64,000 bases of DNA, from contig NZ_CP107783.1 of the NCBI RefSeq assembly GCF_036345255.1, positions 6,370,001 through 6,434,000 on the forward strand, read 5' to 3'. The notes beneath the pieces are model-generated. The model saw only the letters and a program-made list of their open reading frames with translations, was not told the origin of the DNA and did no database searches. This document shows, piece after piece, positions 6,388-21,186 of the stretch. The first letter of the stretch is position 1. Each line of letters begins with the position of its first letter. This DNA comes from Streptomyces sp. NBC_00569 (lineage in GTDB: Bacteria > Actinomycetota > Actinomycetes > Streptomycetales > Streptomycetaceae). The position numbers and the translations under genes are program-made.

Positions 6388-8328
6388 ATGGGCGTACGCA
6401 AGGATCTTCAACGGGCACAGCAGCGCACCGACTTGACGGACCGGGCCGCCGTCGAGACCGTCAAGGACGAGCACGGAACCGTGCGCGAGGTGCGCACGGC
6501 CTCCCTCGCCGCGGACCCCGGCGGGAGCACGCCCGCCGACATCCCCTTCACGAACGCCGCCGAGGCGCCCGACGCCGTGGTCCTGCGGCGCAAGGAGGGC
6601 GAGCACTGGCGTCCCGTCACGGCGGCGGCCTTCGTGCGTGAGGTGACCGCAGCGGCCAAGGGGCTGATCGCGGGCGGCCTCGAACCCGGCGGGCGCGTCG
6701 CCCTCATGTCCCGTACGCGCTACGAGTGGACCGTCCTCGACTTCGCCATCTGGGCGGCCGGCGGGCAGACCGTACCCGTCTACGCCACCTCGTCGGCCGA
6801 ACAGATCGAGTGGATCGTCCGGGACTCGGGCGCGCGCCATCTGATCACCGAGACACCCGGGAACACGGCCACCGCACGGGCCGCGCTCGCCGCGCTGCCC
6901 GAGGAGGAGCGTCCGCGCTGCTGGGAACTGGACGCGGGCGCCGTACTCGAACTCGCCACCCTGGGAAGGGAGATGGACGACGACGAGGTGACGAAGCGGC
7001 GTGCCGCCCTCACCCCCGACACCGTCGCGACCGTCTGCTACACCTCCGGGACCACCGGGAAGCCGAAGGGCTGCGTCCTCACCCACGCCAATCTGCACGC
7101 CGAGGCCGCGAACACGGTGGAGCTGCTGCACCCCATCTTCAAGGAGGTGACCGGACAGGTCGCCTCGACGCTGCTGTTCCTGCCCCTGGCGCACATCCTC
7201 GGCCGCACCATCCAGATCTCCTGCATGCTCGCCCGTATCGAGCTGGGCCACTGCCCCGGCATCAAGCCCGACGAGCTGCGGCCCCAACTGCGCTCGTTCC
7301 GGCCGACGTTCGTCGTCGGGGTGCCGTACCTCTTCGAGAAGATCCACGACACGGGCCGGGCCACCGCGGAGAAGCTCGGCCGCGGTGCGTCCTTCGACCG
7401 GGCCGACCGGATCGCGGTGAACTACGGCGAGGCGCACATGGCCCGCTTTCTCGCCCGCGGCAGGGAGCCCCGCGGCAAGGGCCCTTCCCTCGGTCTCAGG
7501 GCGGCCCGCGGCCTCTACGACCTGCTGGTGTTCCGCCGCGTGCGCAAGGAGCTCGGCGGGCGCCTGCGCTACGCGATCAGCGGCGGCTCCCCCCTCGACC
7601 GGCGCCTCAACCTCTTCTTCTACGCCGCCGGGATCCTCGTCTACGAGGGGTACGGCCTGACGGAGACCAGCGCCGCCGCCACGATCACTCCGCCGCTCGC
7701 CCCGCGCCCCGGGACGGTCGGCCTCCCGGTGCCGGGCACGGCCGTCCGGATCGCCGACGACGGGGAGGTGCTCGTCAAGGGCGGCATCGTGTTCGGCGGA
7801 TACCGGAACAACCCCGAGGCGACGGCGGAGGTGCTCGACGGCGGCTGGTTCGCCACCGGTGACCTGGGGGCCCTCGACGAGGACGGCTATCTCACCATCA
7901 CCGGCCGCAAGAAGGACATCATCGTCACCTCCGGCGGAAAGAACGTCTCGCCGGCCGTCCTGGAGGACCGGCTGCGCAGCCGCCCGCCGGTCGGCCAGTG
8001 CATCGTCGTGGGCGACAACCGTTCCCACGTCGCCGCGCTGATCACACTGGAGCCGGAGGCGGTCGCGCACTGGCTGTCCGTACGGAAGATGCCCGCCCAC
8101 ACCCCGATGGCCGACGTCGTCCGCGACCCGCGGATGATCGCGGCGGTGCAGCAGGCCGTCGACTATGCGAACGAGGCGGTCTCGCGGGCCGAGTCCATCC
8201 GCCGATTCGCCCTGGTGGACGGCGAGTTCACCGAGGACAACGGGCTGCTCACCCCCTCGTTGAAGATCAAGCGGCATGCGGTCGCGGCCGCGTACGAGCG
8301 GGAGATCGAGGACCTCTACCGGCGCTGA
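6388..8328 (+). CDS. Long-chain acyl-CoA ligase (FadD15-like)
   Basis: A 646-residue AMP-forming ligase that activates fatty acids to acyl-CoA. The AMP-binding motif YTSGTTGKPKG lies near residue 217, YGLTE(TS) near 425, GDLG and ITGRKKDIIVTSGGKNV near 510. The C-terminal catalytic Lys is in LTPSLKIKRHA. Length and motifs match actinobacterial FadD15. GGAGC precedes the ATG. An operator-like palindrome lies in its promoter. Its last 13 bases overlap the 3' end of the opposing TetR gene. It may serve general beta-oxidation; supplying the adjacent PKS locus is possible but not required. Confidence 0.93.
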   Translation: MGVRKDLQRAQQRTDLTDRAAVETVKDEHGTVREVRTASLAADPGGSTPADIPFTNAAEAPDAVVLRRKEGEHWRPVTAAAFVREVTAAAKGLIAGGLEPGGRVALMSRTRYEWTVLDFAIWAAGGQTVPVYATSSAEQIEWIVRDSGARHLITETPGNTATARAALAALPEEERPRCWELDAGAVLELATLGREMDDDEVTKRRAALTPDTVATVCYTSGTTGKPKGCVLTHANLHAEAANTVELLHPIFKEVTGQVASTLLFLPLAHILGRTIQISCMLARIELGHCPGIKPDELRPQLRSFRPTFVVGVPYLFEKIHDTGRATAEKLGRGASFDRADRIAVNYGEAHMARFLARGREPRGKGPSLGLRAARGLYDLLVFRRVRKELGGRLRYAISGGSPLDRRLNLFFYAAGILVYEGYGLTETSAAATITPPLAPRPGTVGLPVPGTAVRIADDGEVLVKGGIVFGGYRNNPEATAEVLDGGWFATGDLGALDEDGYLTITGRKKDIIVTSGGKNVSPAVLEDRLRSRPPVGQCIVVGDNRSHVAALITLEPEAVAHWLSVRKMPAHTPMADVVRDPRMIAAVQQAVDYANEAVSRAESIRRFALVDGEFTEDNGLLTPSLKIKRHAVAAAYEREIEDLYRR

Positions 8329-8843
8329 CCGCCCGCCGCCGGAACCGGAACCGGGATCGGAGCCGGTGCCGCGATCGGAGTCCGGAGCGGGGGCGCTGCG
8401 GGCGGCAGGCCGTGGGCGAAGAGCGCGGCGAGTTCGGCGGGTGTGGCGCCCGTGCGCTCGCCGGCCAGGTCCCACAGGTCCAGCCAGCCGCGCCGGACCC
8501 GCGCGGCGAAGGCGTCCTGGCCCGGCGACGCGGCCGTGGCGGCGGCCTGGAGCAGCATGAGGGTGACGTCCCGGTCGGCGCGCAGCTCCGCGTACGCCCG
8601 GGACATCCCCTCCAGAGTCGCGGGCGCCTCGCCCAGGGCCTGGGCGAGGCGTCGGAAACAGCTATCGGTGGCCGCCTCGAACAGGGCGTGCTTGGTCGGG
8701 AAGAAGCGGAACAGGTACGGCTGCGACACCCCGGCCCGCCGCGCGATCGCCTCCGTCGACGTGCCGTGGAACCCGCGCCGGGCGAACTCGGCGAACGCGG
8801 CCCGCACGACGGCCTCCCGCCGCGCGCCGGCGCTCAGCCGCAT
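8316..8843 (-). CDS. TetR-family regulator at the edge of the PKS locus
   Basis: A 175-residue regulator. The helix-turn-helix spans about residues 8-55 (AFAEFARRGFHGTSTEAIARRAGVSQPYLFRFF). The C-terminal half resembles the TetR ligand domain, and the tail is rich in Ala and Pro. ATG at 8843 is preceded by GGGGTGAG; an open frame extends further upstream through a 15-base tandem repeat but lacks a ribosome site. It lies downstream of the flavoenzyme gene on the same strand and may be co-transcribed with it. It does not look like an ArpA/ScbR-type butyrolactone receptor, but sequence reading alone cannot exclude that. Confidence 0.85.
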   Translation of the reverse strand: MRLSAGARREAVVRAAFAEFARRGFHGTSTEAIARRAGVSQPYLFRFFPTKHALFEAATDSCFRRLAQALGEAPATLEGMSRAYAELRADRDVTLMLLQAAATAASPGQDAFAARVRRGWLDLWDLAGERTGATPAELAALFAHGLPPAAPPLRTPIAAPAPIPVPVPAAGGQRR

Positions 8844-8915
8844 CGCGTGCTCACCCCGCGTCGCCCGCACACGCCGGCTCGGCAGCGGCCGATACGGGCC
8901 ACGATCAGGGTGGGC

Positions 8916-8960
8916 ATCTGGGGTCTCCTCATCGGGGGTCTCCACATCAGAGGTCTTCTT
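8916..8960. repeat. 15-base tandem repeat, three copies
   Basis: Three head-to-tail units, ATCTGGGGTCTCCTC, ATCGGGGGTCTCCAC and ATCAGAGGTCTTCTT, fill the gap between the flavoenzyme stop and the TetR gene start. Phase is conserved (15 bases), so the reading frame across them stays open. Function unknown. Confidence 0.7.
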
Positions 8961-8970
8961 GTGGGTCGGT

Positions 8971-10629
8971 TCAGAGCGGGACGTCGTCTCCCTTGGACAC
9001 ATCCAGCGGATCCCAGCCCTCGCCTCGCTCCGGGAGCAGGGACGGAGCCGACAGGACGGATCCGGTGTGCACCTCGTGCATCAGGCGGCGGTCCAGGATC
9101 CGGCCCGCGCAGGCGATGCCGCTGACCGCCGAGCCCGTGATGCCGTTGCCGTAGCGGGTGTCCGCGCCGGCGATGTAGAGGCCCTCGACGAAGGTCGCCG
9201 AGTCCGGGCGGGCCCCGGCCGCGCCCCAGTGAGCCATGCCGAAGGGCGTACCGCCGCTGGAGAGCGTGTAGCGCTCGTGGGTGAGGGGAGTCGCGGTCTC
9301 CAGGTGCGTGATGTGACCGCGCAGCGGGCCGAGCAGCTCCTCCGCCGCGTCCAGGACCGCGTCCGTGAGGCGGGCCTTCTCTTTCTGGTACGCGGGGTTG
9401 CGGCGGTACTTCTCGCCGTCCGCAGGGCCCGTACTCACGCCCCACTGCTCGAAGCCGGGCGGGCACAGCGTCATCAGCTGGAAGTTGGAGTGGCCCGGAG
9501 GGCAGATGCGAGGGGTGACGTCGTCCTTGCCGGAGGCGAACGACGCGAAGAGGAAGTCCGAGCCGCCCTCCACGGTCCCGGCGCGCAGCCCCGCGTAGAA
9601 CCGCTCGATGTCGTCGCCGCGGTACCACCACAGGTTGGCGTGCTGTCCGACGTCCCGGTCGAGAGCCACGTAGACCGCCGCCCAGGGGAGCGCCATCCGC
9701 GCGTCGCGCGTCTTGGCGGCGAGGCGGCGCGGCAGGTTCCGCGCGCCGACGAGGTCCAGCATGGTGCGCCGGTAGTCGGCGTTCGAGACGACGACCGGGG
9801 CGGGCGCGCGGCTGCCGTCGGCGAACTCGACACCGCGCGTACGGCCCTCCTCGACGGCGATCCGCGTCACCCTGCTGTACGTGCGCAGCGCGCCGCCGTG
9901 CGCGCGGATCACCTCGAGGAGGCCGGCCGCGAGCATCTGGCCGCCGCCCTGCGGGTAGTAGGCGCCCCGGATGTAGTGGTCGGTGACCGTGGCGTGCAGG
10001 GCGACGGTCGCCTCGTCGGGCGCCATGCCGTAGTTCGGCGACTGGGCGGCGAGCAGCGTACGGGCCCGTGGCGACAGGCCGCAGTGGTCGAACAGCTCGG
10101 TCAGGGTGCGGCGCCCCCAGGCCACCGACTGCGGTGCCTGCTGCGGGAGTTCGGACATCGGGAGGTCCTCGGCGGCGACGATCGCGTCCCGCCGCTCGGT
10201 GCCGAGCCCCGCCACGACGTCGAGGAACGCGTCGATCCCCGCCGCGTCGGCCGGACACGCCTCCTGGAGCCGCTTGCGGTACGTCGCCCAGTCCGCCGGC
10301 ATGTCGAGCGTGGCTCCGGGGATCACGATGCGGTCGAAGCCGTCCGGGTTCATCTCGCGGTACGTGAGCCGCTCGCGCAGGCCGAGCCCGCCCAGGACCG
10401 CGGGCAGCAGCCCGTCCGGTCCGCAGTCGCCGAGATAGTGCACGCCGACGTCGAACTCGTAGGCGCGGCGCCTGCGGAACACATGGCTGTTGCCGCCCGC
10501 GACGCCGCCCTGCTCGGCGACCAGGACCCGCTTCCCGGAGACCGCGAGATACGCGGCGCAGACAAGACCGCCGATGCCGGAGCCGACGACGACCGCGTCC
10601 CAGCTGTCCGGAGCCTGCGTGAAGTTCAT
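8971..10629 (-). CDS. Phytoene-desaturase/retinol-saturase-like FAD oxidoreductase
   Basis: A 552-residue flavoprotein. The dinucleotide-binding motif GSGIGG (residues 16-21) and EQGGVAGGNSHVF are typical of the carotenoid desaturase family. A C-terminal FAD-contact region, GLYIAGADTRYGNGITGSAVSG, is also present. Family members desaturate, saturate or isomerise polyene chains. No carotenoid genes are nearby, while a type II PKS with dehydratases is, so a polyene acyl chain is the likely substrate; related enzymes have been proposed for ring formation in cinnamoyl-lipid pathways. The ATG at 10629 overlaps the malonyltransferase stop by ATGA, so the two are translationally coupled. Confidence 0.85.
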   Translation of the reverse strand: MNFTQAPDSWDAVVVGSGIGGLVCAAYLAVSGKRVLVAEQGGVAGGNSHVFRRRRAYEFDVGVHYLGDCGPDGLLPAVLGGLGLRERLTYREMNPDGFDRIVIPGATLDMPADWATYRKRLQEACPADAAGIDAFLDVVAGLGTERRDAIVAAEDLPMSELPQQAPQSVAWGRRTLTELFDHCGLSPRARTLLAAQSPNYGMAPDEATVALHATVTDHYIRGAYYPQGGGQMLAAGLLEVIRAHGGALRTYSRVTRIAVEEGRTRGVEFADGSRAPAPVVVSNADYRRTMLDLVGARNLPRRLAAKTRDARMALPWAAVYVALDRDVGQHANLWWYRGDDIERFYAGLRAGTVEGGSDFLFASFASGKDDVTPRICPPGHSNFQLMTLCPPGFEQWGVSTGPADGEKYRRNPAYQKEKARLTDAVLDAAEELLGPLRGHITHLETATPLTHERYTLSSGGTPFGMAHWGAAGARPDSATFVEGLYIAGADTRYGNGITGSAVSGIACAGRILDRRLMHEVHTGSVLSAPSLLPERGEGWDPLDVSKGDDVPL

Positions 10630-11606
10630 GCCACGCTCCGGGTCGGCGTCGACGGAAGCGGAGCCGGCACCGCGGGCAGCTGCCCCGGTTCGCCGACCGT
10701 GAGCCGGGAGACGCGCGGCGCGGTCTTGCGGGCCAGGCCCGTGAGCGTACGGCCGGGACCGATCTCGACGAACATGTCGCAGTGCAGCTCGTCGGCCATC
10801 GTGCGCACCGAGTCCGTCCAGCGCACCGGGGACGTCAGCTGCCGCCTCAGGAGCTCGGGCCAGCCGTCGGAACCGCGGTAGGGGCGGGCATCGACGTTCG
10901 CCACGACCGGCGCGAAGCCGTGCAGGAACTCGGTCCTCGCGAGCGCCCGCTCGAACGACACGGCCGCCGGGGCCATCAGCGGCGTATGGAAGGCGCCGCC
11001 CACCGGGATCGACACGACCCGCGCCGCCCCCAGCTCCACGGCCACCGCCGAGCACCGCTCCACAGCCTCGGCCTCGCCCGAAAGGACCGTCTGCTGCGGC
11101 GAGTTGAGATTTGCGACCCAGACCCGGCCGCCGTCCTCGCGCACATACGCGGCGGCCTTCTCCAGTTCACCGGCGGACAGCCCGAGGACCACGGCCATCG
11201 TGCCGGGCGCGTCCGCGCACGCCTTGCGCATCGCCTCGCCGCGCGCCGCGACGAGCCGTACGCCGTCCTCGAAACCGATGACACCGGCCGCGACGAGCGC
11301 CGCGTACTCGCCGAGGCTGTGGCCCGCGCACACCAGGGGGCGGCCCGCGGCGGGCAGGACCTGCCGCAGCTCGCTCAGGATCACCATCTCCAGGACGAAC
11401 GTGGCGAGCTGCGCGTTGTCGGTGCGCCGCAGATACGCGTCGTCGGCGCGGAGCAGCAGTTCCACCACGTCACGCCCGGACACCTCGCTCGCCCGCTCGG
11501 CCAGGAACCAGCCGGGGCTCGACGCCCATGGCCGGCCCATTCCCGCCTGCTGCGCGCCCTGCCCCGGAAACACCAGAGCCAATCGCGGACCTGTCATCTC
11601 GTCCAT
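10626..11606 (-). CDS. Malonyl-CoA:ACP acyltransferase (FabD-like)
   Basis: A 326-residue discrete acyltransferase that would load malonyl units on the ACP encoded opposite. The family start LVFPGQGAQQAGMG (about 11-24) and nucleophile motif GHSLGEYAA (Ser about 97) are intact, and the catalytic-His region GGAFHTPLM is present. Two close starts exist (11606 and 11597); the first is reported. It is the first gene of a two-gene unit with the flavoenzyme. It is divergent from the ACP-KS-CLF operon across a 231-base promoter region. Most type II PKS loci borrow FabD from fatty-acid synthesis, so a dedicated copy is notable. Confidence 0.92.
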   Translation of the reverse strand: MDEMTGPRLALVFPGQGAQQAGMGRPWASSPGWFLAERASEVSGRDVVELLLRADDAYLRRTDNAQLATFVLEMVILSELRQVLPAAGRPLVCAGHSLGEYAALVAAGVIGFEDGVRLVAARGEAMRKACADAPGTMAVVLGLSAGELEKAAAYVREDGGRVWVANLNSPQQTVLSGEAEAVERCSAVAVELGAARVVSIPVGGAFHTPLMAPAAVSFERALARTEFLHGFAPVVANVDARPYRGSDGWPELLRRQLTSPVRWTDSVRTMADELHCDMFVEIGPGRTLTGLARKTAPRVSRLTVGEPGQLPAVPAPLPSTPTRSVA

Positions 11607-11770
11607 CGCCTTCTTCTGTCTCCCGGAATTACGGCTACGGCGATGATTCCAGAGGGATTTGGAACCGTCGTAGAGGGCAGATAAAAGGTCTCCGAATACT
11701 CGCGCGGGGCGGGGGAGAAGCCTTTGCTGTCACTTTCGGGGAATGCGCTGTCTCTTTCGTTGGGCGCCCC

Positions 11771-11800: not shown

Positions 11801-11837
11801 CCCTTCGTCAAGGCAGCAGGCGATGAGAGGAACACAC

Positions 11838-12128
11838 ATGACTCAGCAGACCGTGGCGTCGGCGGCCGGCTACCACGAGCAGGTGAGCCGGATCGTCATC
11901 GAGGAACTCGAACTGGAAGAGGGAGAGCTGACGGACAGCGGTCATTTCATCGACGACTACGACAGCGACTCGCTCTCCCTCATCACCGTGGTCTCCCGAA
12001 TAGAGAAGGAATTGGGAGTTGCCATTCCGAAGGACACCCTCGGTGATCTGGTGAATGTGCGCCTCCTCGTCGACGCCGTTGTGCAGCACGCCGCGGACCA
12101 GCAGGCGGGGGAGAGCGCGAATGGCTGA
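11838..12128 (+). CDS. Acyl carrier protein
   Basis: A 96-residue carrier protein. The phosphopantetheine site is DSDSLSL (Ser about 45) at the start of helix II, followed by the acidic recognition helix and VAIPKDTLGDLVNVRLLVDAV. The ATG at 11838 follows GAGAGG. It is first in an operon with KS, CLF and two dehydratase subunits and overlaps the KS start by 8 bases. It requires 4'-phosphopantetheine; an Sfp-type transferase gene lies at 27.3 kb. It would carry the growing acyl chain for all enzymes of this locus. Confidence 0.93.
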   Translation: MTQQTVASAAGYHEQVSRIVIEELELEEGELTDSGHFIDDYDSDSLSLITVVSRIEKELGVAIPKDTLGDLVNVRLLVDAVVQHAADQQAGESANG

Positions 12129-13359
12129 CACCGCCGGTGCGGCGCGCCCCTCGCGCCGCGTCGTCATCACCGGACTCGGCGCGGTGTCGCCCGTCGGCAT
12201 CGGCGCCGACGTCTTCGCCGCGGCCGTCCGGGCGGGCGTCGACGGCACCGCCCCCATCGAGTCCTTCGACGCGAGCGCCTTCCCGCGCCGCAAGGCCGGC
12301 GAAGTCCTCGACTTCGAGCCCGCCGACCACCTCAAGCGGCTCGACCCGCCGCGCTGGGGTCGCAGCGGCCTGCTCGCGGCGGCCGCCGCCCGGCTCGCCG
12401 TCGCCGACGCGGGCATCGACGAGGAGCAGCTCGACACGGCCCGCGCGGGCGCCGTCATGGGCACCACCAGCGGCGAGTCCGCGGTCGTCCAGGCCCTCGC
12501 CGAGCAGTGGATCGAGGGCGGTCTCGCCTCGATCGACGGCGAACTCGCGGGCCAGACACCGGCGTCCAGGATCGCCAACGCGGTCAGCGCCGAGCTGCGC
12601 CTCACCGGCGAGACGCAGACCATCCCGACGGCCTGCTCCGCCTCCAACTACGCGCTCGGCTACGCCTACGACCTGGTGCGCAGCGGCGAGGCCGAGGTGA
12701 TGCTCGCGGGCGGCGCCGACGCCGTCAACCGCCTCACCCACGCCGGGTTCTACGCGCTCGGCGCGATGGCCGAGGACGTGCCGCGGCCCTTCGCCGCCGA
12801 CCGCTCCGGCATCGTCACCGGCGAGGGCGGCGCCGTCCTCGTCCTGGAGACGTACGAGCACGCCGTGGCGCGCGGCGCCCGGATGTACGCGGAGATCCTC
12901 GGCTACGCGGCCAACTGCGACGCCGCCCACATGGTGCACCCCGACGCGACCAGCATCGCCGCGGGCATCAGGGCCGCGCACGAGGCGGCCGGCGTCGAGC
13001 CCGAGCAGATCGACTACATCTGCGCGCACGGCACCGGCACACCGACGAACGACTCCACCGAGGTGGCCGCCGCCCGCGAGGTGTTCGGCGACCGCATCCC
13101 GCCGATCAGCTCCATCAAGTCGATGCTCGGCCACACCATGGGCGCCGCGTCCGGCTTCGGCGCGATCGCCTGCTGCAAGGCGTTCGAGCAGGACTTCCTG
13201 CCGCCCACGGCCAACGTCACCGAGCCCGACCCGGCGCTCGGCGAGGGCGTGGACTGCGTGCCCGGCGTCGGCCGCGAGGCCCGCCTGGACATCGTGCAGA
13301 ACCACGGGTTCGCCTTCGGCGGGAACAACGTCATCACCATCCTGGGGAGGGTCTCGTGA
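12121..13359 (+). CDS. Type II PKS ketosynthase alpha (FabF-like)
   Basis: A 412-residue condensing enzyme that extends the ACP-bound chain. The triad is intact: Cys172 in IPTACSASN, His303 in CAHGTGTPTND and His338 in LGHTMGAAS. The fold begins at RRVVITGLGAVSPVG. ATG at 12121 overlaps the ACP stop; its own stop overlaps the CLF start by GTGA, the classical KS-CLF arrangement. With ketoreductase and dehydratases nearby but no aromatase or cyclase of the aromatic type, it looks like a ketosynthase of the highly reducing type II class (ishigamide-like), not one making aromatic polyketides. Confidence 0.93.
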   Translation: MADTAGAARPSRRVVITGLGAVSPVGIGADVFAAAVRAGVDGTAPIESFDASAFPRRKAGEVLDFEPADHLKRLDPPRWGRSGLLAAAAARLAVADAGIDEEQLDTARAGAVMGTTSGESAVVQALAEQWIEGGLASIDGELAGQTPASRIANAVSAELRLTGETQTIPTACSASNYALGYAYDLVRSGEAEVMLAGGADAVNRLTHAGFYALGAMAEDVPRPFAADRSGIVTGEGGAVLVLETYEHAVARGARMYAEILGYAANCDAAHMVHPDATSIAAGIRAAHEAAGVEPEQIDYICAHGTGTPTNDSTEVAAAREVFGDRIPPISSIKSMLGHTMGAASGFGAIACCKAFEQDFLPPTANVTEPDPALGEGVDCVPGVGREARLDIVQNHGFAFGGNNVITILGRVS

Positions 13360-14465
13360 CGACCGCGACTGCGACCGCGGGCACCACCGCCGTCGCGACC
13401 GCCGCACCGCTCTACGTCACCGGCGCCGGGGTCGTCTCCGCGGCCGGGTACGGACTCGCCCCGCTCGGTGAACTCCTGCTCGGTCAGGGTGAGCCGGAAA
13501 GGAGCCCGGTCGGCGCGGACGCCGACGCGTACCCGCCGCGCCCCGTCCGCGCCGTCCACGGCTTCGACGTCAAGACGCACCTGGGCCGCAAGGGCACCAA
13601 GTACCTCGACCGGCTCACCTCCTTCGGCCTGGTGGCCTGCAAAGAGGTGCTCGAAGGGGCGGAGGTGAGCGGCGGCCGTACCGGCGTGGTGCTCGCCACC
13701 AACACCGGCTCCGTGTCGACACACAGCTCCCTCCTGTACGACACGCTGACCCTGGAGAAGCCGTACCTGGTGAACCCGGGCCAGTTCCCGAACACCGTCA
13801 TGAACAGCACCTCCGGGCAGATCGCCATCCGCAACGGCCTGCGCGGCCTGAACGCGACCGTCGCCGGCGGTCAGACCGCCTCGCTGCTCGCGTTCCGGCA
13901 CGCACGCCTCGCGCTCGGCCTCGGCCGCGCCGAACGGCTCCTCGTCGGCGGCGTGGAGGAACTGAGCGCCCCGGCGGCCTGGGCGTGGCACCGCACCGGG
14001 GTGCTCCGCGACGACGCGGCGCTCGGTGAGGGCGCGGCCGTCTTCACCGTTCAGCAGGACCCTGCGGAGGGGGCCCTGGCCGAACTCCTCGCGTGCGAGG
14101 TGCGGTTCACGCCGGACCCGCGGCAGTACGCCGAAGGTCTCGCGAACGTCGTCTCGCGGGCCCTCGACCGCAGCGGGGTCCGCCCCGAGGAGGTGACGGC
14201 CGTCTCCCTCGGCGCCGCCCACCACCGCGGCCTGGAGCGGATCGAGGAGCGCGGCGTGCGGGCCGCGCTGGGGGGCGAACTGCCGCGTGCCGTACGGGTC
14301 GCCGATGTGCTCGGCGAGACGTACAGCGCCAGTGGCGCGCTGCAGCTCGCCGCCCTCCTCGCCCTGTGGCAGGCCGAGCCGCCGGCCTCACCGGTGACGG
14401 CGCTCGTCACCTCCGTGGGCCGGGACGGCAACGCCGCGGCCCTGGTGGTGCGCAGCCCCCGCTGA
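13356..14465 (+). CDS. Chain-length factor (ketosynthase beta)
   Basis: A 369-residue KS homologue in which the active-site Cys is replaced by Gln (about residue 173, in VAGGQTASLLAF), the hallmark of chain-length factors. The His-containing motifs are also degenerate: AHHRGLERIE stands where KS has HGTGT. It should pair with the upstream KS as a heterodimer and set chain length. The GTG at 13356 overlaps the KS stop (GTGA), ensuring equal synthesis. It begins with an unusual Thr/Ala-rich stretch before LYVTGAGVVSAAG. A strong terminator-like hairpin follows its stop. Confidence 0.92.
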   Translation: MTTATATAGTTAVATAAPLYVTGAGVVSAAGYGLAPLGELLLGQGEPERSPVGADADAYPPRPVRAVHGFDVKTHLGRKGTKYLDRLTSFGLVACKEVLEGAEVSGGRTGVVLATNTGSVSTHSSLLYDTLTLEKPYLVNPGQFPNTVMNSTSGQIAIRNGLRGLNATVAGGQTASLLAFRHARLALGLGRAERLLVGGVEELSAPAAWAWHRTGVLRDDAALGEGAAVFTVQQDPAEGALAELLACEVRFTPDPRQYAEGLANVVSRALDRSGVRPEEVTAVSLGAAHHRGLERIEERGVRAALGGELPRAVRVADVLGETYSASGALQLAALLALWQAEPPASPVTALVTSVGRDGNAAALVVRSPR

Positions 14466-14525: not shown

Positions 14526-14552
14526 CCGCCGACTGCCCCTGAAGGAGCCCGT

Positions 14553-14978
14553 ATGCCCGCCGCCACCTTCGACCCGGCCTGCGCAGGCCGCACCTACCCG
14601 CCCACCGAGCCGTACGAAGTGGGCCGCGAGAAGATCAGGGAGTTCGCCGCCGTCCTCGGGGCGCCGGCCGGTGACGGCGCCGTCGCGCCGCCCACCTTCC
14701 CCATCGTGCTGTCCCTGCACGTCATGAAGCAGATCCTCGACGACCCGGACCTCGGCTTCGACTTCGCGCGGGCCGTCCACCGCGACCAGCGCTTCGAGTC
14801 GGTCCGCCCGGTGCGCGCCGGGGACCGGCTCACCGTCACCGTCGAGATCGTCACCGCCGGGACGGTCGACGGGAACGACGTCGTCACCCTGCGCGGACAC
14901 CTGCGCGAGGCGGACGGCGGCGCGCCCGTGTGCACGACGACCTCGACCCTCGTCTCCCGTATGGAGAAAGCCGTATGA
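14553..14978 (+). CDS. HadA-like (MaoC N-terminal type) dehydratase subunit
   Basis: A 141-residue hot-dog protein matching the FAS1-like dehydratase family (HadA/HadC of mycobacterial fatty-acid elongation): RTYPPTEPYEVGREKIREFA at the start, APPTFPIVLSL, and HRDQRFESVRPVRAGDRLTVTVEI. This subunit lacks the Asp/His catalytic motif and would bind acyl chains while its partner supplies catalysis. AAGGAG precedes the ATG. The stop overlaps the next gene by ATGA, so the two subunits are probably made one to one and form a heterodimer dehydrating beta-hydroxyacyl-ACP. Confidence 0.88.
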   Translation: MPAATFDPACAGRTYPPTEPYEVGREKIREFAAVLGAPAGDGAVAPPTFPIVLSLHVMKQILDDPDLGFDFARAVHRDQRFESVRPVRAGDRLTVTVEIVTAGTVDGNDVVTLRGHLREADGGAPVCTTTSTLVSRMEKAV

Positions 14979-15391
14979 GCCAGGTACCGCGGCCCGGCGA
15001 CCGGCTGCCCACCCGCACCTTCCGCTACACCCGCGAGCGGCTCGTGGCCTACGCCGCCGCGTCCGGCGACCACAACCCCATCCACTGGTCCGACTCCCGC
15101 GCCGCCGCGGTGGGCCTGCCCGGCGTCATCGCGCACGGCATGCTCGGCATGGGCGTCGCCGCGACCGCCGTCACCCGGTGGGCGGGCGAGCGGGCCACCC
15201 TCATCGAGTACGGCACCCGCTTCACCCGTCCGGTCCTCGTCCCCGACACCGCCGACGGTGTGGACCTCACCGTCGACGGCACCGTGGGCGACGTCAGGGA
15301 AGACGGGACGGTTCGGGTCGATCTGACGGTGCGCTGTGCGGAGCAGAAGGTGCTGGCGCGGACGCGCGCGGTGCTGGCGTACGACCGATAG
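14975..15391 (+). CDS. HadB-like (MaoC) dehydratase catalytic subunit
   Basis: A 138-residue MaoC-type hot-dog enzyme. The hydratase-2 motif is intact in SGDHNPIHWSD (Asp32, His37), with PGVIAHGMLGMG following. It would catalyse (R)-3-hydroxyacyl-ACP dehydration with the HadA-like partner, introducing trans double bonds after ketoreduction. The start overlaps the partner's stop. Its last 98 bases overlap the 3' end of the opposing MFS gene. Highly reducing type II PKS loci described so far generally use FabA/FabZ-like dehydratases, so a split HadAB-type pair would be unusual. Confidence 0.9.
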   Translation: MSQVPRPGDRLPTRTFRYTRERLVAYAAASGDHNPIHWSDSRAAAVGLPGVIAHGMLGMGVAATAVTRWAGERATLIEYGTRFTRPVLVPDTADGVDLTVDGTVGDVREDGTVRVDLTVRCAEQKVLARTRAVLAYDR

Positions 15392-16700
15392 CGAGCCCCG
15401 CGAACGCCCCGGCGAACACCACGGCGGCCCCCGTCAGCACCGCGCTGCGGAGGCCGCCGTGCGTGTACACGGCGGTCAGGACGGCGATGCCGAGGGCGCC
15501 GCCGAACTCGCGGATCGTGTTGTTCACGCCGGACGCGAGATTGTGCTCGTGCTCCGCGACCGAGCCGATGACCGTCGCCGGGTTCGCGGCGAAGACGAGA
15601 CCCATGCCGACGCCCGCGAGAACCATCGCGCCGACCATCTGCCCATACGCCAGACCGGGCTTCGAGATCAGCGCCAGCCACACCAGCGCGACCGCCTGGA
15701 GCAGACACCCCGCCGCCTGGAGCGGCCCGCCGCCCACCCGCCCGACCAGCGCGCTGGCCAGCGGAACGATCACCATCGGCGCCGCGGTCCACGGCAGCGT
15801 ACGCAGACCCGCCTCGAACGGCGAGTAGCCCATCGGCCCCTGCATGAACTGCGCCAGGAAGAAGATCGCGCCGAACACCCCGAAGTACATCGTCAGGGCC
15901 AGCGCGTTGCTCAGCATGAACGGGCGCACGCGGTAGAGGTGCAGCGGCGCGAGAGGCGTCGGGGTGCGCCGCTGCCACCAGGTGAAGCCGGCGAACAGCG
16001 CGGCGGACACGGCGAGTCCGGCCAGCGGACGCACCGCGGTCCAGCCGCTGTCGGCCGCCTGCACGATGCCCCACACGGCCGCCACCACCGCACCCGTGAC
16101 GAACGCGATGCCCGGCACGTCGAGACGGCGCGGCGCGCCCTTGGACTCCCGGATCGCCCACAGGGCGAGGGGGAGGGCGACCGCCCCCACCGGCACGTTG
16201 ATCCAGAAGATCCAGTGCCAGTCGAGGCCCTGTGTGACCAGGCCGCCGGCCATCGGGCCGAGCGCGATGCCCAGGCCGTTGACGCCGCCCCACACGCCGA
16301 CCGCGAGCGGCCTGCGCTCCGGGGCGACGGCCGCGACGGCCAGCGTCAGCGAGACCGGCAGGACGGCGGCGGCCCCCGCCCCCTGCACGACGCGGGCGGC
16401 GACGAGCAGGCCCGCCGAGTCGGAGAGCGCGCACGCCGCGGACGCGACGGTGAAGAGCCCGATGCCCCACACGAAGACGCGCCGCCGGCCGATCCGGTCG
16501 CCGAGAGCGGCGCCCGCGAGCAGCAGCCCCGCGAACGCCAGGATGTATCCGTTGACGACCCACTGGAGGCCGGACTGGCGCACCCCCAGGTCCCGGGAGA
16601 TGACGGTCAGCGCGTTGGTCACGACGAGGTTGTCGACGGCCACCATGAACATGGGCAGCGAGGTCGCGATCAGCGCCCACGCCGCCCCCTTGGCTCGCAC
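15294..16700 (-). CDS. MFS drug exporter (DHA2, 14-TMS type)
   Basis: A 468-residue transporter of the EmrB/QacA-like DHA2 family. Motifs seen are DNLVVTNALTVISRDLG in helix 1, GDRIGRRRVFVWG in loop 2-3 and WHWIFWINVPVG after helix 5. About 14 hydrophobic segments can be traced; the tail is rich in Pro, Ala and Ser. The GTG start at 16700 follows AAGGAAAG. It is last in the afsA-HAD-KR-SnoaL unit, so it is the likely exporter of, or self-resistance determinant for, the locus product. Its 3' end overlaps the dehydratase gene tail to tail. Confidence 0.9.
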   Translation of the reverse strand: MRAKGAAWALIATSLPMFMVAVDNLVVTNALTVISRDLGVRQSGLQWVVNGYILAFAGLLLAGAALGDRIGRRRVFVWGIGLFTVASAACALSDSAGLLVAARVVQGAGAAAVLPVSLTLAVAAVAPERRPLAVGVWGGVNGLGIALGPMAGGLVTQGLDWHWIFWINVPVGAVALPLALWAIRESKGAPRRLDVPGIAFVTGAVVAAVWGIVQAADSGWTAVRPLAGLAVSAALFAGFTWWQRRTPTPLAPLHLYRVRPFMLSNALALTMYFGVFGAIFFLAQFMQGPMGYSPFEAGLRTLPWTAAPMVIVPLASALVGRVGGGPLQAAGCLLQAVALVWLALISKPGLAYGQMVGAMVLAGVGMGLVFAANPATVIGSVAEHEHNLASGVNNTIREFGGALGIAVLTAVYTHGGLRSAVLTGAAVVFAGAFAGLAIGRTPAPRASAPAPSAPHSAPSDRPEPSRLP

Positions 16701-16789
16701 GATGTCTTTCCTTCCATACGGCTTGGGGACGCGAGGAGGCCGCCGGCCCTCTGGAGGTCCGGCGGCCTGACCCGCGCGTACGAACGGCG

Positions 16790-17233
16790 TTACGCCTGCG
16801 TGCCCGCCGGCGGCAGCTTCAGCTCGACGGCGCCGATCTGGGCCAGCAGGAACAGGTCCTGGCGGCAGGCCCAGTGCTCGTGCACCAGACCGTCGTCACC
16901 GACGCGGTAGATGTGGATGTGCTCGACGTCGACCTTGTTGCCGGTGCCCTCGAAGCCGAGGAAGTCGCCGGTGTGGATGCCGGTGAAGCGCACCCGGATG
17001 ACGGCCTTGTCGCCGTCGGCGAACGAGTCGATGTGGTCCCAGCTCGCCTCGGAGAACACGGAGTTCATCCAGCGGGCGGTGCCGAGGTAGCCGGAGGGGC
17101 CGCCGGGGGTGCCGGGCGGGGCCTCGTAGTCGACGAAGCCGGGGGCGACCAGCTCATGGGCGACCTTCTCGTCGAGGTCGTTGAAGATCTTGCCCATCTG
17201 CTGGGCGATCTCCAGAACGGTGGCGTCGGACAT
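16790..17233 (-). CDS. SnoaL-like protein
   Basis: A 147-residue cone-shaped alpha+beta barrel protein of the SnoaL/NTF2 family: FNDLDEKVAHELVAPGFVDYEAPPG, VRFTGIHTGDFLGFEGTGN and VEHIHIYRVGDDGLVHEHWACRQD are typical of the ester-cyclase branch. Members act as polyketide cyclases, hydratases or hydroxylases; some have no enzymatic role. AGGAAAGGA precedes the ATG. It lies between the ketoreductase and exporter genes and may shape or cyclise the acyl product. The exact reaction cannot be read from sequence. Confidence 0.85.
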   Translation of the reverse strand: MSDATVLEIAQQMGKIFNDLDEKVAHELVAPGFVDYEAPPGTPGGPSGYLGTARWMNSVFSEASWDHIDSFADGDKAVIRVRFTGIHTGDFLGFEGTGNKVDVEHIHIYRVGDDGLVHEHWACRQDLFLLAQIGAVELKLPPAGTQA

Positions 17234-17284
17234 GGAGTTCCTTTCCTGTAAAGGGACTTGGGGGGTTCTGCGGTGTGGGGGGAA

Positions 17285-17989
17285 TCAGTGGCCGACGCCG
17301 AGGCCGCCCGTGACCGGGAGGATCGCCGCCGTGACGTACGAGGCCTCCTCGCTCGCCAGGAAGCGGACGGCGGCGGCGACCTCGTCCGGGGTGCCGGCCC
17401 GGAACAGGGACGTCTGGCCGAGGACGTGCTGACGCCGGGCGTCGGTGACGTCCTTGACCATGTCGGTCTCGATCAGGCCGGGCGAGACGATGTTGACCGT
17501 GATGTTGCGGCGGCCCACCTCGCGGGCGAGCGAGCGGCCGAAACCGATCAACCCGGCCTTGGACGCGGCGTAGTTGGTCTGGCCGGGGGCACCCGCCATC
17601 GCGCTCATCGAGGACATGAGGACGACCCGGCCCCAGCGGGCCTTGAGCATGTCCGGCACGACCTCCTTGGCGACGGTCACCGCCGACATCAGGTTCGTCT
17701 CGATGACCGCGCGGAAGTCGTCGTCCTCCATACCGACGAGCAGCTCGTCGCGGGTGATCCCGGCGTTGGAGACGAGCACCTGGATCGGCCCGTGCTGGAT
17801 GCGGGCCTCGTCGACCGCGCGCCGGACGGACTCGGGGTCCGTCACGTCGCAGCGCACCCCGAACAGGCCCTCGGGCGGCTCACCGGTGCGGTACGTGACG
17901 GCGACCTTGTCGCCCTGTCCGGCCAGGGCGCGGGCGGTGGCGAGGCCGATGCCCCGGTTCCCGCCGGTGACGAGCACGGAACGGCTCAC
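17285..17989 (-). CDS. 3-oxoacyl-ACP reductase (FabG-type ketoreductase)
   Basis: A 234-residue short-chain dehydrogenase. It has the NADPH motif GGNRGIG (9-15), NAG (75-77) and catalytic Ser127, Tyr140 and Lys144 (QTNYAASKAG). Sequence similarity to FabG is high (SPGLIETDM, LASEEASYVT), so it should reduce beta-keto groups after each KS/CLF extension, feeding the HadAB-like dehydratase. The GTG at 17989 lies 4 bases after the HAD stop and has AGGAG in the end of that gene. It is part of the afsA operon, so reduction and the AfsA step are co-expressed. Confidence 0.92.
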   Translation of the reverse strand: MSRSVLVTGGNRGIGLATARALAGQGDKVAVTYRTGEPPEGLFGVRCDVTDPESVRRAVDEARIQHGPIQVLVSNAGITRDELLVGMEDDDFRAVIETNLMSAVTVAKEVVPDMLKARWGRVVLMSSMSAMAGAPGQTNYAASKAGLIGFGRSLAREVGRRNITVNIVSPGLIETDMVKDVTDARRQHVLGQTSLFRAGTPDEVAAAVRFLASEEASYVTAAILPVTGGLGVGH

Positions 17990-17993: not shown

Positions 17994-18683
17994 TCAGCTC
18001 CTAGGGGTGGGGGACAGGGCCGCCGGCAGGAGGGCGTCGAGCCGCTCCGCCGCCTCGGCCGTGCCGGTGAAGTGGATCGCCTGCCATCCGGCCGCCTCCG
18101 CACCCGCGCAGTTGTGCGCAAGGTCGTCGACGAGCACACAGTTCTCGGCCGGTACCCCGGCCCGCTCGGCGGCGAGGGCGAACATGCCGGGCGACGGCTT
18201 GCGCCGGCCGACCTCGAAGGACAGCAGGACGTCGTCGAAGAGCTCCGCCGGATCGACCATGCGGCGCCAGTGCGCGTCCCAGGTCGGCACCATGTTGGAG
18301 AGCATCCCGACGAACGCGCCGCGCTCGCGCGCCGTGCGCAGCGCCGCCACCCACGCGTGGTTGGTCTCCCGCCCGTCGAACCAGGCGTCGGCCAGCGTCG
18401 TCAGGCGCACGCCGGTCACACCGTGGTCGGCTGCTAGCACCTCGGAGACCTGCGCGAGCCACTCCTCCTCGGAGACGAGAGGGGTGTCGATCGGCTCCAT
18501 GATGTCGCTCGTGCCGTAGCGGGCGGTCACCTTGCCGAGCGCCTGCTGGAGGGCCTGCGGGTCGATGCCCTGCGAGGTGCAGAACGTGCCCATCGTGTGG
18601 GCGATCGGCGGGGTGAGGACCCCGCCGAAGTCGGTCCAGACGGCGAGGCGCCGGGGCGCCCGCGCGTCCTGCGTGCTGCTCAC
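17994..18683 (-). CDS. HAD-superfamily phosphatase
   Basis: A 229-residue HAD-IA hydrolase. Motif I is DFGGVLT: the nucleophile Asp is present but the second Asp is Gly, as in YihX/epoxide-hydrolase-N-like members. Motif II is MLSNM, motif III the Lys in GRRKPSPGMF, and motif IV VDDLAHN. The GTG at 18683 overlaps the afsA stop (GTGA). In butyrolactone biosynthesis the AfsA product carries a phosphate that must be removed, so a translationally coupled phosphatase is a logical partner. That role is inferred; the missing second Asp makes a test worthwhile. Confidence 0.85.
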   Translation of the reverse strand: MSSTQDARAPRRLAVWTDFGGVLTPPIAHTMGTFCTSQGIDPQALQQALGKVTARYGTSDIMEPIDTPLVSEEEWLAQVSEVLAADHGVTGVRLTTLADAWFDGRETNHAWVAALRTARERGAFVGMLSNMVPTWDAHWRRMVDPAELFDDVLLSFEVGRRKPSPGMFALAAERAGVPAENCVLVDDLAHNCAGAEAAGWQAIHFTGTAEAAERLDALLPAALSPTPRS

Positions 18684-19672
18684 AGCTCACTCCCGGGTGC
18701 GACGGTGACGGTGACGTGCGCGATCTCGGCGTCGCCCTGGAGGAAGCGCACGGGGGTCTGCGTCCGGCCGCCGTCCGCGCGCGTCCGCGGCGCCTCGGCG
18801 TGCACCGGCTCGTCGAGCTCCGCGAACCGTGAGAAGCGCGCCTCGAACCCGACGGCGTACGTCGTCCGCGGCTCGCCCGTGGACAGCAGGGCCAGCTGCC
18901 GCGCCGCCTCGACGAGCGTCATCGCGGGCAGGTGGTCGTAGACGTGGTCGAACAGCGCGCGGTTGTCGAAGCGCGGGGTGACCTCGGCCGAGACCGCGGC
19001 GGGGGACGTCTCGGGGCGGGACAGGACGACGTTCAGCGGGTTGCCGCGGCCCACCCGGGCGGGCTCGGCCTGCCAGGTGTCGTCCGCCGCGGCCCCGTGG
19101 TCGCAGAAGTCCGAGGTGAGCGGGGCGGGTGTGCCGCGCTGGGCGTGCCGCAGGACCTCGTTCTCGTGCTGGTTGAGGAACAGCACGTCCATCTCGTGCT
19201 CGCCGACCTCGGTGTCGTCGACGAAGTAGCGCTGGGCGACCTTGCCCTTGCGGTAGCGGCCGCGCCGCGTCGGCTGCCCGATGTACTCGGTGTCGATGCG
19301 CAGCCGGCCGGGCTCCGGGCCGACGACCAGTTCCTTGAGCCCGTACAGGTCGAGCCGGAACGTGTCGACGATCATCGTGGTGCCCTTGGACAGCCCGATG
19401 TGCGCGTGCGACCCCGCGATGGCCGCCTGCCGGCCCGACTCCAGGAGCAACAGCGCGTCGTAGACCGCCGGCCGCTGCACATGGTCGCTGTAGTAGCCGT
19501 GGGTGAGCGGGAGTTGGACCGCGGAGCGGACCTTCTTGGCGGCCAGCGCTCTGATGTCCGTGACGAAGACCTCGGAGACCGCGGCCCGGTGGACCAGGGA
19601 GCGGTCGACGGTGCGCCCGTAACTGAGTTCGGCGGGCGCCGAAGGAATCTCCGGAGCCACGTGTGTGGTCAT
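18680..19672 (-). CDS. AfsA/ScbA-family butenolide synthase-like protein
   Basis: A 330-residue protein with two AfsA hot-dog repeats (about 22-160 and 205-320). Family signatures are HRAAVSEVFVTDI, GYYSDHV in the first repeat, and LFDHVYDHLPAMTLVEAARQ in the second. AfsA condenses a beta-ketoacyl-ACP with dihydroxyacetone phosphate to a butenolide phosphate, the first step to gamma-butyrolactone signals. ATG at 19672 is chosen because AAAGGAAAC precedes it; an ATG at 19720 has no ribosome site. It heads the operon afsA-HAD-KR-SnoaL-MFS and is divergent from a MerR gene. Its substrate may be the acyl chain built by the adjacent PKS. Confidence 0.9.
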   Translation of the reverse strand: MTTHVAPEIPSAPAELSYGRTVDRSLVHRAAVSEVFVTDIRALAAKKVRSAVQLPLTHGYYSDHVQRPAVYDALLLLESGRQAAIAGSHAHIGLSKGTTMIVDTFRLDLYGLKELVVGPEPGRLRIDTEYIGQPTRRGRYRKGKVAQRYFVDDTEVGEHEMDVLFLNQHENEVLRHAQRGTPAPLTSDFCDHGAAADDTWQAEPARVGRGNPLNVVLSRPETSPAAVSAEVTPRFDNRALFDHVYDHLPAMTLVEAARQLALLSTGEPRTTYAVGFEARFSRFAELDEPVHAEAPRTRADGGRTQTPVRFLQGDAEIAHVTVTVAPGSEL

Positions 19673-19897: not shown

Positions 19898-20542
19898 ATG
19901 CGTATCGGAGAGCTGGCGCGGCGTACCGGAGTTCCGGTCCCCACCATCAAGTACTACTCGCGCGAGGGCCTGTTGCCCCCGGGTGAGCGCACCAGCCCGA
20001 ACCAGGTCGCGTACGACGATTCCCATGTCCGCAGGCTCAAGCTGATCCGGGCGATGCTGGAGGTCGGCGGCCTGTCCATCGCGGCCGCACGCGATGTCCT
20101 GTCCGAGGTCGACTCCCCGACCCGCACGGTCCACGGCATGCTCGGCGTCGCCCAGTCCGCGGTGACCAGGGCCGCCGTCGAGCGGGGCACCGACGAGGAC
20201 CGGGAGCGGGCCGAGGGCGAGGTCCGTGAGCTCGTGCTCCGGCACGGCTGGGCGGCCAAGCCGGAGAACCCCGGCTGGCAGGCGCTCGTCCAGATCGTGC
20301 TGACCTACCGCGACCTCGACCGGGGCGACCTGCTCACCCTGCTCGACAAGTACGCCGCCGCGGCGGGGGAGTTGGCGGTCGCCGAGCTCGGGGCGCTCGC
20401 CGATGTGCCCAGCGCCGACGGCAAGGTCGAGGGCGTCGTCCTCGGCACGGTCCTCGGCGACGCGGCCATGGCGGCCCTGCGCCGGATCGCCCAGGAGGAC
20501 GCCTCCGGCCGGATCCGCAGCGGGCACAGGCACAGCGCGTAG
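19898..20542 (+). CDS. MerR-family regulator divergent from afsA homologue
   Basis: A 214-residue regulator. The N-terminal winged helix (MRIGELARRTGVPVPTIKYY, RRLKLIRAMLEVGGLSI) is followed by a long helical region and an effector domain of about 100 residues. The latter contains ENPGWQALVQIVLTYRDLDRGDL and ends GTVLGDAAMAALRRIAQ. The effector region is shared with the MerR protein at 32.1-32.8 kb and is not a metal-binding one. It is separated by 225 bases from the afsA start and is the best candidate for controlling that operon, possibly sensing its lipid product. Confidence 0.87.
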   Translation: MRIGELARRTGVPVPTIKYYSREGLLPPGERTSPNQVAYDDSHVRRLKLIRAMLEVGGLSIAAARDVLSEVDSPTRTVHGMLGVAQSAVTRAAVERGTDEDRERAEGEVRELVLRHGWAAKPENPGWQALVQIVLTYRDLDRGDLLTLLDKYAAAAGELAVAELGALADVPSADGKVEGVVLGTVLGDAAMAALRRIAQEDASGRIRSGHRHSA

Positions 20543-20553
20543 CCCTCGCCGGC

Positions 20554-21186
20554 TCACCCGGCGTACGCCGGCAGCGGCGCCACTGGCGCCAGATGGTGCA
20601 CATGGGCGGGCGGCAGATTCCCGAACACCGTCTCCGTACGGAACCGGTGCCGGTCCAGGGTCCGCCCGACGACGGCCTGCACCGCGAGGGTCCGTTCGCG
20701 CGCCCCGCCCGTCGTGAACACCCGGCGCAGCGGGGGCATCCCCGCGTACGCGAAGAACGACAGCGTGCCGCCGGGGCGCAGCGCCGCAAGGAGCCGGCCG
20801 AAGATGTCGTCGACGGTGCCCGCGTCGAAGTTGGCGAACGGCAGCCCGCACACGACGGTGTCGTAGCTCCCCAGCTCGTGCTCCTGCACGAGTCCGGTGA
20901 GCAGCCGCACCCGCTCGTCGCCGCCGTAGTCGCGGTGCAGGAGCTCGGCGAAGCGGGGGTTCGCCTCGACCAGGTCGAGGGTGTCCAGGGCGCCGAGCGA
21001 GGCCCTGATGTGCCGGGTCACGGCACCCGTGCCGGGGCCGACCTCGAGCACCGCGCGGGCGCGGCCGGGACTGGGGATCACGTAGCGGGTCAGGGCCCGC
21101 GCCAGCAGGGGACTGCTGGGCGCGATGGCCCCGGTGTCCCGGCGGGTGCGGGCGAACTCTCGGAGGAACAGCGTCACATCGGTCAT
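20554..21186 (-). CDS. SAM-dependent methyltransferase (phospholipid N-methyltransferase-like)
   Basis: A 210-residue class I methyltransferase. Motif I is LEVGPGTGAVT, motif II DLVEANPRFAEL, and the post-motif region YDTVVCGLPFANFDAGTVDDIF. The N-terminus VTLFLREFARTRRDTGAIAPSSPLLAR resembles PmtA-type lipid methyltransferases. The ATG at 21186 has AGGTGG just upstream; another ATG at 21201 lacks a ribosome site. It converges on the MerR gene. Substrate could be a membrane lipid or the locus product; undetermined. Confidence 0.82.
   Translation of the reverse strand: MTDVTLFLREFARTRRDTGAIAPSSPLLARALTRYVIPSPGRARAVLEVGPGTGAVTRHIRASLGALDTLDLVEANPRFAELLHRDYGGDERVRLLTGLVQEHELGSYDTVVCGLPFANFDAGTVDDIFGRLLAALRPGGTLSFFAYAGMPPLRRVFTTGGARERTLAVQAVVGRTLDRHRFRTETVFGNLPPAHVHHLAPVAPLPAYAG

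Follow-up and report, generated by a model that had tools for sequence, protein, structure and literature searches.

We analysed a type II polyketide synthase (PKS) locus of Streptomyces sp. NBC_00569 in which the gene for an AfsA-type protein, coupled to a gene for a HAD-family hydrolase, lies beside a ketosynthase (KS) and chain length factor (CLF) pair. The locus falls in a 64,000-nucleotide stretch, hereafter the window (contig NZ_CP107783.1, positions 6370001-6434000), of a single-contig genome of 10.3 Mb. Naming genes by Pfam and NCBIfam scans, PDB matches and alignments with relatives recovered everything listed in a preliminary description of the locus: acyl carrier protein (ACP), KS, CLF, FabD, a FabG-type ketoreductase (KR), a HadA/HadB-like pair, a CrtI-like flavoenzyme, a SnoaL-like protein, AfsA and HAD (Table 1). 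Five gene pairs overlap (ACP/KS, KS/CLF, HadA/HadB, FabD/flavoenzyme and afsA/HAD), as coupled genes usually do, and the GTGA overlap reported for afsA and HAD on the minus strand is present.

Synteny in close relatives extends the cluster to about twice its first reported length. The span given initially, 8316-21186, captured the left half and missed the right, which runs to about 32815 and holds VTT, MMPL, lactonase-type, phosphopantetheinyl transferase (PPTase)-like, SARP, UbiA, LuxR/kinase and MerR genes. Six close relatives (L060, L061, L062, L064, L066 and L067) share these genes in an almost identical arrangement, with KS identities of 89-99% and AfsA identities of 72-98%; the closest named relative at the locus is Streptomyces sp. 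NBC_01446 (CLF 97%). On their right flanks all six have the MMPL, PF10282 lactonase-type, SARP, UbiA, LuxR/kinase and second MerR genes, and five have the PPTase-like gene. The TetR gene at the left end is matched in all of them except L064. Two genes to the right of 32815 (g31, g32) are matched only in the nearest relative (L130), and the four genes to the left of 8316 used as queries (g3-g6) are matched, among the six, only in L060. We therefore take the unit to be about 8316-32815.

Table 1. Genes of the conserved block, with positions in the window
Feature	Position	Strand	Evidence
TetR-family regulator	8316..8870	-	PF00440; left end of conserved block
CrtI/CRTISO/RetSat-like FAD oxidoreductase	8971..10629	-	best NCBIfam crtI_fam, 132 bits, under cut-off
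malonyl-CoA:ACP transacylase (FabD-like)	10626..11606	-	PF00698; TIGR00128 260.3 bits, cut-off 260.9
acyl carrier protein	11838..12128	+	PF00550; Ser45 in DSDSLS
ketosynthase (KS)	12121..13359	+	Cys172, His303, His338; best PDB 6kxd_A (Iga11)
chain length factor (CLF)	13356..14465	+	Gln173; best PDB 6kxd_B (Iga12)
HadA-like dehydratase subunit	14553..14978	+	PF13452; NCBIfam HadA under cut-off
HadB/MaoC-like dehydratase subunit	14975..15391	+	PF01575; D32, H37 in GDHNPIHW
DHA2-type MFS exporter	15294..16700	-	PF07690; efflux_EmrB 232.7 bits, over cut-off 230.2
SnoaL/NTF2-fold protein	16790..17233	-	PF07366
FabG-type beta-ketoacyl-ACP reductase (KR)	17285..17989	-	PF13561; YAASK motif; NCBIfam FabG1 306 bits, under cut-off
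HAD-family hydrolase (proposed phosphatase)	17994..18683	-	PF00702; motif I DFGGV; 4-base overlap with afsA
AfsA-type double-hotdog protein (proposed phosphorylated butenolide synthase, chain release)	18680..19672	-	PF03756; E78, E255, R258
MerR regulator	19898..20542	+	PF13411; 7 of 28 AfsA-bearing loci, including Nonomuraea L076
S-adenosylmethionine methyltransferase, distantly OlsG/PmtA-like	20554..21201	-	PF08242; NCBIfam OlsG 60.6 bits, under cut-off
DedA/VTT membrane protein	21366..21998	+	PF09335; syntenic in six close relatives
MMPL exporter	22154..24349	+	PF03176; NCBIfam MmpL3 419 bits, under cut-off; 6/6 relatives
7-bladed beta-propeller lactonase-type protein	25949..27148	+	PF10282, 315 bits; 6/6 relatives
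4'-phosphopantetheinyl transferase-like	27303..27947	-	PF01648 19.9 bits, under cut-off 25; HetI-type 42.8, under cut-off; 5/6 relatives
SARP-family activator	28187..29011	-	AfsR/SARP models 139.5 and 132.9 bits, under cut-offs; 6/6 relatives
UbiA prenyltransferase	29041..29874	-	PF01040; motifs NGVTDIHED, DFSDAEGD; 6/6 relatives, also L068, L069, L082
LuxR-type response regulator	30091..30795	-	gene call; 6/6 relatives
Sensor kinase	30758..31894	-	gene call; 6/6 relatives
Second MerR regulator	32099..32815	-	PF13411; 6/6 relatives; right end of conserved block

The KS, CLF and AfsA proteins

Judged by sequence, the KS and CLF fall in the highly reducing, or polyene, group of type II PKS, a group that part of PMC10698177 defines by a KS-CLF pair with KR and dehydratase. 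The locus combines a KS-CLF pair with both enzymes, and the residues reported for it were verified: the KS keeps Cys172, His303 and His338, and the CLF has Gln173 in place of Cys, as expected of this group. The best solved match of the KS is Iga11 of ishigamide biosynthesis (6kxd_A, 365.9 bits, against 189.3 for the actinorhodin KS), and that of the CLF is its partner Iga12 (6kxd_B, 149.1 bits). The maximum likelihood KS tree has 74 rows and draws on 68 window, plasmid and genome-contig loci, less four that were too short or misread (L065, L098, L103, L121). In it the window KS joins Iga11 and 9s5h in a 66-row clade (support 100/100), separate from FabF, the actinorhodin KS and two aromatic-type KS that the genome also encodes. 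On this phylogeny, proposed in the preliminary description for KS and CLF and run here for the KS, we dropped an aromatic or spore-pigment PKS. No aromatase was recognised among the block genes scanned with Pfam and NCBIfam, which include a SnoaL-fold gene. Nor was an enoyl reductase recognised among them, so the product chain is probably a polyene. Residues that separate the KS and CLF of AfsA-bearing loci from other polyene KS and CLF suggested no mechanism. The locus thus resembles the ishigamide type in its best KS and CLF matches, KS clade and KR plus dehydratase, and differs in having a single KS/CLF pair with AfsA and HAD, whereas related loci lacking AfsA mostly have a second KS/CLF-like pair.

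The split HadAB-type dehydratase described earlier is present as a pair. HadB carries the Asp/His pair (D32/H37), which we take to be the MaoC hydratase motif, while the aligned HadA has neither the pair nor a stretch found in three longer relatives. Mycobacterial HadAB likewise has the Asp/His pair in HadB and not in HadA. The genome encodes a further HadB-like protein, 53% identical to the cluster HadB, so the cluster pair is a separate copy.

The AfsA protein exceeds the PF03756 cut-off and is predicted to adopt a double-hotdog fold (mean pLDDT 88.1). In a 61-row alignment without characterised AfsA proteins, E78 and E255 are invariant and R258 occurs in at least 90% of rows; we take these to be the conserved Glu and the Glu-x-x-Arg known from work on ScbA. 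The first Foldseek matches of the model are acyl-ACP thioesterases and PKS dehydratase domains; they are consistent with a role in acyl-ACP off-loading but do not prove it. Searching PDB sequences with a profile of AfsA gave a single match, which was meaningless. AfsA domains occur in only three genes of the 10.3 Mb genome.

Recurrence and co-inheritance of AfsA with KS/CLF

AfsA, HAD hydrolase, KR, ACP, KS and CLF recur together across eight genera. A CLF-alignment scan of species-representative genomes gave at least 64 loci, most of them covered for only 10 kb on either side, so that gene counts are lower bounds. AfsA was matched in 26 of the 64 loci listed, and all of these fall in one clade of the KS tree. 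No AfsA match was obtained in the remaining 38, two of which are short contigs of the window type (L063, L065); loci lacking AfsA mostly carry a second KS/CLF-like pair, often with FadD, and have no AfsA within about 10 kb. Adding two plasmid loci to the 26 gives 28 AfsA-bearing loci, or 29 with the window. KR, ACP, KS and CLF are each present in 28 of 28. This recurrence rules out AfsA as a chance neighbor.

The gene next to afsA is conserved as a phosphatase-type gene even where its family changes. In 27 of the 28 loci afsA has a HAD gene as its immediate, co-oriented neighbor; in the remaining one, L084, the contig ends 31 bases past afsA. The adjacent HAD belongs to the window's family in 22 of the 28, where the two genes often overlap by 4 or 8 bases, and to another cluster in five (L080, L081, L085, L087, L090), of which the one scanned, L090, is a PF12710 member. 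Retention of the gene despite this replacement is the best single sign that the AfsA product is phosphorylated. In the window, motif I of the proposed phosphatase, DFGGV, lacks the second Asp of the usual DxD.

Other genes were called less often in the 28 loci: SnoaL-like in 17, flavoenzyme in 11, HadA and HadB in 10, KAS III-like in 9 and FabD in 8. For the remaining loci the polyene claim rests on dehydratases not seen, since most were covered for only 10 kb on either side. In L038, a Streptomyces goshikiensis plasmid, HadA/HadB-like DNA lies at 675-1655, at the place of the MaoC pair of L037; it is unannotated and its frames look disturbed.

The KS tree groups the AfsA-bearing loci. One clade (100/99) holds the 29 AfsA loci together with the short contig L063 and the plasmid locus L039, which lacks AfsA, so that 29 of its 31 rows have AfsA. 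A second, quicker tree of 84 rows, 75 of which differ and some of which come from the same genomes, brought in loci from the within-genus CLF search described below and gave an AfsA clade of 41 rows (SH-aLRT 99), 36 with AfsA; the rest are the contig-truncated L040 and L063, whose KS are identical, and L039, L045 and L046, which lack AfsA in their covered sequence. This second tree left out L065, L098, L103, L121 and L041 and misplaced L059 on a long branch. Within the genus (246 genomes), 7 of 20 regions around the best CLF matches outside the window's own genome contain AfsA, three of the 20 being short contigs (L040, L041, L045). A CLF above 60% identity occurs in 4 of the 245 other genomes.

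AfsA and the PKS also change together. Across the 29 loci, pairwise AfsA distances correlate with those of KS (r=0.93), CLF (0.93) and KR (0.94), and none of 2000 permutations reached such values; in 16 dereplicated loci KS-AfsA r was 0.77, again exceeded in none of 2000. The KS-CLF correlation, for comparison, was 0.95 and 0.87 in the two sets. Recurrence and correlated change across eight genera strengthen the earlier proposal of a dedicated PKS as the source of the chain used by AfsA.

Two variants of the gene set stand out in the collection. Five loci (L070, L072, L073, L074, L077) form a sister cluster type in which the AfsA/KS/CLF core is joined by ATP-grasp (L-amino-acid-ligase-like), PRA-isomerase-like, GFO/IDH and AMP-binding genes, a hint that the product is linked to an amino acid. 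In Nocardiopsis sp. FR4 (L094), two KS/CLF/ACP/KR sets lie side by side, adjoining AfsA-HAD.

Proposed release by AfsA and competing explanations

We consider it likely that a dedicated highly reducing type II PKS builds a chain that AfsA releases onto dihydroxyacetone phosphate (DHAP), with the HAD enzyme removing the phosphate. From the gene set, synteny, clades, motifs and predicted AfsA fold we infer the substrate, partner, step order and product of this pathway, the last as a polyenyl butenolide. ACP, KS, CLF, KR, HadAB and FabD would assemble the ACP-bound chain through elongation, ketoreduction and dehydration. The beta-keto group formed in the final elongation would be left unreduced, and AfsA would esterify the beta-ketoacyl-ACP with DHAP. 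Intramolecular aldol closure would yield a 2-acyl-butenolide phosphate, from which the HAD enzyme, encoded by the gene overlapping afsA, would take off the phosphate. Tailoring may fall to the flavoenzyme (desaturating, isomerising or reducing the polyene), the methyltransferase and UbiA (prenylation), and export to the MFS and MMPL proteins. KR and AfsA would share the beta-keto intermediate, so release must beat reduction in the last round; through this competition AfsA would share in setting chain length.

The proposed chemistry has precedents. In gladiostatin biosynthesis an AfsA-like domain was shown in vitro to join a 3-ketothioester to DHAP, releasing the chain of a type I PKS (sections of PMC7756379), and the ester product of AfsA closes by intramolecular aldol condensation (portions of PMC12301235). 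The gladiostatin/gladiofungin system, whose domain is termed PBS, is alike in that an AfsA-type protein ends a polyketide with DHAP and phosphatase genes lie in the cluster (PMC7756379, same sections). In that system it is fused to the C-terminal end of a trans-AT type I PKS, whereas the locus encodes it as a discrete protein next to a type II PKS. Cispentacin offers another non-aromatic KS-CLF-like pair, AmcF/AmcG (parts of PMC10698177), but the window KS scores 179.9 bits against a cut-off of 325 on the AmcF model NF058662, and on this score we dropped the cispentacin type; the word butenolide is absent from the main text of PMC10698177.

Several observations weigh against release by AfsA from a polyene PKS. 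The AfsA fold matches are loose (TM-score about 0.5, root mean square deviation 7-13), and the protein falls under the NCBIfam ScbA/BarX (NF041195) cut-off, with 163.8 bits against 200. The altered motif I of the HAD enzyme and the 10 of 28 loci with called HadA/HadB count in the same direction. Three loci of the KS clade have no AfsA in their covered sequence: L039 (37 kb), L046 (about 43 kb with L161/L162) and L045 (a 15 kb contig). The branch of the window is sparse, its best AfsA match outside its own genome being 38% identical among 41 relatives. The distance correlation can be accounted for, in part or in full, by common descent of the organisms.

AfsA might instead release a partly reduced chain that the SnoaL-like protein and flavoenzyme fold into a carbocycle or aromatic ring, perhaps prenylated by UbiA, a possibility we regard as unlikely. 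The SnoaL-like gene in 17 of 28 loci, UbiA in all six close relatives and in L068, L069 and L082, and the infrequent HadAB calls would suit such a product. The closest PDB relatives of SnoaL are 4lgq and IdmH, with other annotated polyketide cyclases. However, the KS groups with Iga11 and not with aromatic KS, no aromatase was recognised among the scanned block genes, and the position that aligns with what is presumably the usual catalytic Asp of SnoaL is Gln in the window, as in most complete relatives (Asp in L037, L038, L071, L075 and L076). The following residue is Asp or Glu, and Asp in the window. With Gln at this position we dropped SnoaL as a proven aldol cyclase; it may still help the aldol closure in the proposed pathway.

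A hormone-like arrangement, in which AfsA, HAD and KR form a butenolide or gamma-butyrolactone (GBL) signal module fed by fatty acid synthesis, as in Sab/Srr, and regulate a separate KS/CLF product, appears improbable. GBL, SRB/SAB butenolide and methylenomycin furan pathways draw their chain from primary fatty acid synthesis and commonly have a receptor gene nearby. They share an AfsA-type synthase with the locus, and SAB butenolides also require a phosphatase and a ketoreductase (SabA, SabP and SabD being synthase, phosphatase and ketoreductase; excerpts of PMC7756379); they differ in that no receptor was found in the window block. A search with four receptors found an ScbR-type gene in 2 of 29 loci, the near-identical plasmids L037 and L038; its presence in these two counts for a signal module, its rarity and their near-identity against one. 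The window and L060 gave only a short helix-turn-helix match, in the window at 5636-5809 and so outside the block, and no ScbR/ArpA-type receptor lies beside afsA in the block. The TetR protein at 8316..8870 has a weak ScbR-family NCBIfam match (32.1 bits, cut-off 150). The FabG1-like KR and the correlated AfsA and KS distances also speak against a separate signal module.

The AfsA tree agrees with the receptor search. Among its 46 rows, a branch (99/96) separates the 29 KS/CLF-linked proteins from five signal-type and five other-cluster rows. Four signal-type rows have an ScbR-type gene (L148, L151, L152, L153), and L149 has SARP genes with no ScbR in the stretch covered. A strict clade of KS/CLF-linked AfsA was rejected (approximately unbiased test, p 3.5e-7) because the unlabelled P0060, P0082, P0104, P0115 and P0119 fall inside. 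The few ScbR receptors and the tree grouping together argue for a pathway enzyme, and on these two grounds we dropped an ordinary hormone system as the leading explanation and kept it as an alternative.

Release onto another phosphorylated ketose (C4-C6), in the manner of AvrD-like synthases that use pentuloses, seems improbable: AvrD joins beta-ketoacyl thioesters to xylulose, a pentulose is the proposed substrate of MmyD (parts of PMC12593393), and the unusual HAD could act on another substrate, but the protein is of the PF03756 AfsA type, and the AfsA-type enzymes described in sections of PMC7756379 use DHAP. Methylenomycin MmyD, being AvrD-like (PMC12593393, same parts), was dropped as an example of AfsA.

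AfsA also occurs in other cluster types. In the window's own genome, L154 (G000:C1:5053001-5073000) holds a second butenolide-type cluster at 2866-17698, most of its genes named by eye: FabD-like, carboxyltransferase-like, AfsA, KAS III-like, flavin monooxygenase-like, ACP, FabF-like KS, AKR-like and HAD-like, with a further AfsA and an ScbR-like TetR gene. The Streptomyces plasmids L144, L145 and L146 have AfsA next to genes for a HAD-IB hydrolase and KAS III; a gene for a flavin-dependent oxidoreductase or monooxygenase is close by, and the stretch covered contains no KS/CLF. In Rhodococcus fascians, plasmid pFiD188 carries AfsA paired with HAD (L150, 2468-4143), accompanied by genes for MFS and MMPL proteins and a flavin monooxygenase.

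Neighboring genes and wider meaning

The accessory genes are lactone-related in part. PF10282 lactonase-type genes are present in the window and all six close relatives, and L075 and L076 match more weakly; SGL-type propellers exceed the cut-off in L070 and L073 and fall under it in L037. A clustered protein of L079 included in this comparison had no Pfam match. The N-terminus of the window's lactonase-type protein resembles a signal peptide by eye. These neighbors are suggestive of a lactone product, no more. The flavoenzyme family is large (876 proteins at E<=1e-20 among 7998 scored), and this homologue search pointed to no function. The LuxR regulator and kinase are 44% and 32% identical to L037 genes annotated "response regulator" and "ATP-binding protein". 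A gap of about 1.6 kb between MMPL and lactonase genes (24350-25948) has no confident gene call, and L130 and L131 have a similar gap. Farther right, 42695-46282 has lower GC and integrase-like and IS-type fragments (g36-g38, by eye) and looks like a mobile-element scar.

The pairing of AfsA with a reducing type II PKS is provisionally undescribed. Among the matches listed from an open-access library, a scope that leaves aside subscription journals and curated cluster databases, no title or abstract opening describes this pairing or a locus with the same gene set, in line with the preliminary description. Neither of two type II PKS surveys (PMC10132072, PMC12664062) nor NaPDoS2 (PMC9582728) uses the word butyrolactone in its main text, and that of PMC12664062 also lacks butenolide and AfsA. 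The kind of release is not itself new, since the sections of PMC7756379 cited above show it in vitro for the gladiostatin type I PKS.

More tentatively, these loci may represent a widespread, old actinomycete cluster family in which AfsA is the built-in off-loader of a reducing type II PKS and decides chain length by competing with KR. The window branch would make a prenylated, MMPL-exported polyenyl butenolide lipid with a C3 head from DHAP, on which a secreted lactonase would act, and the product would be antibiotic or pigment-like rather than a hormone.

If the proposed release is correct, AfsA-type chemistry, shown for a type I PKS (PMC7756379, in the sections cited) and known from hormone pathways, would extend to discrete type II synthases. 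AfsA and HAD beside KS/CLF would then provide a genome-mining handle on clusters in eight genera for which no products were found, and a small set of stand-alone enzymes would allow off-loading to be probed against chain length in vitro. On this view, an afsA gene near a PKS need not imply a hormone system.

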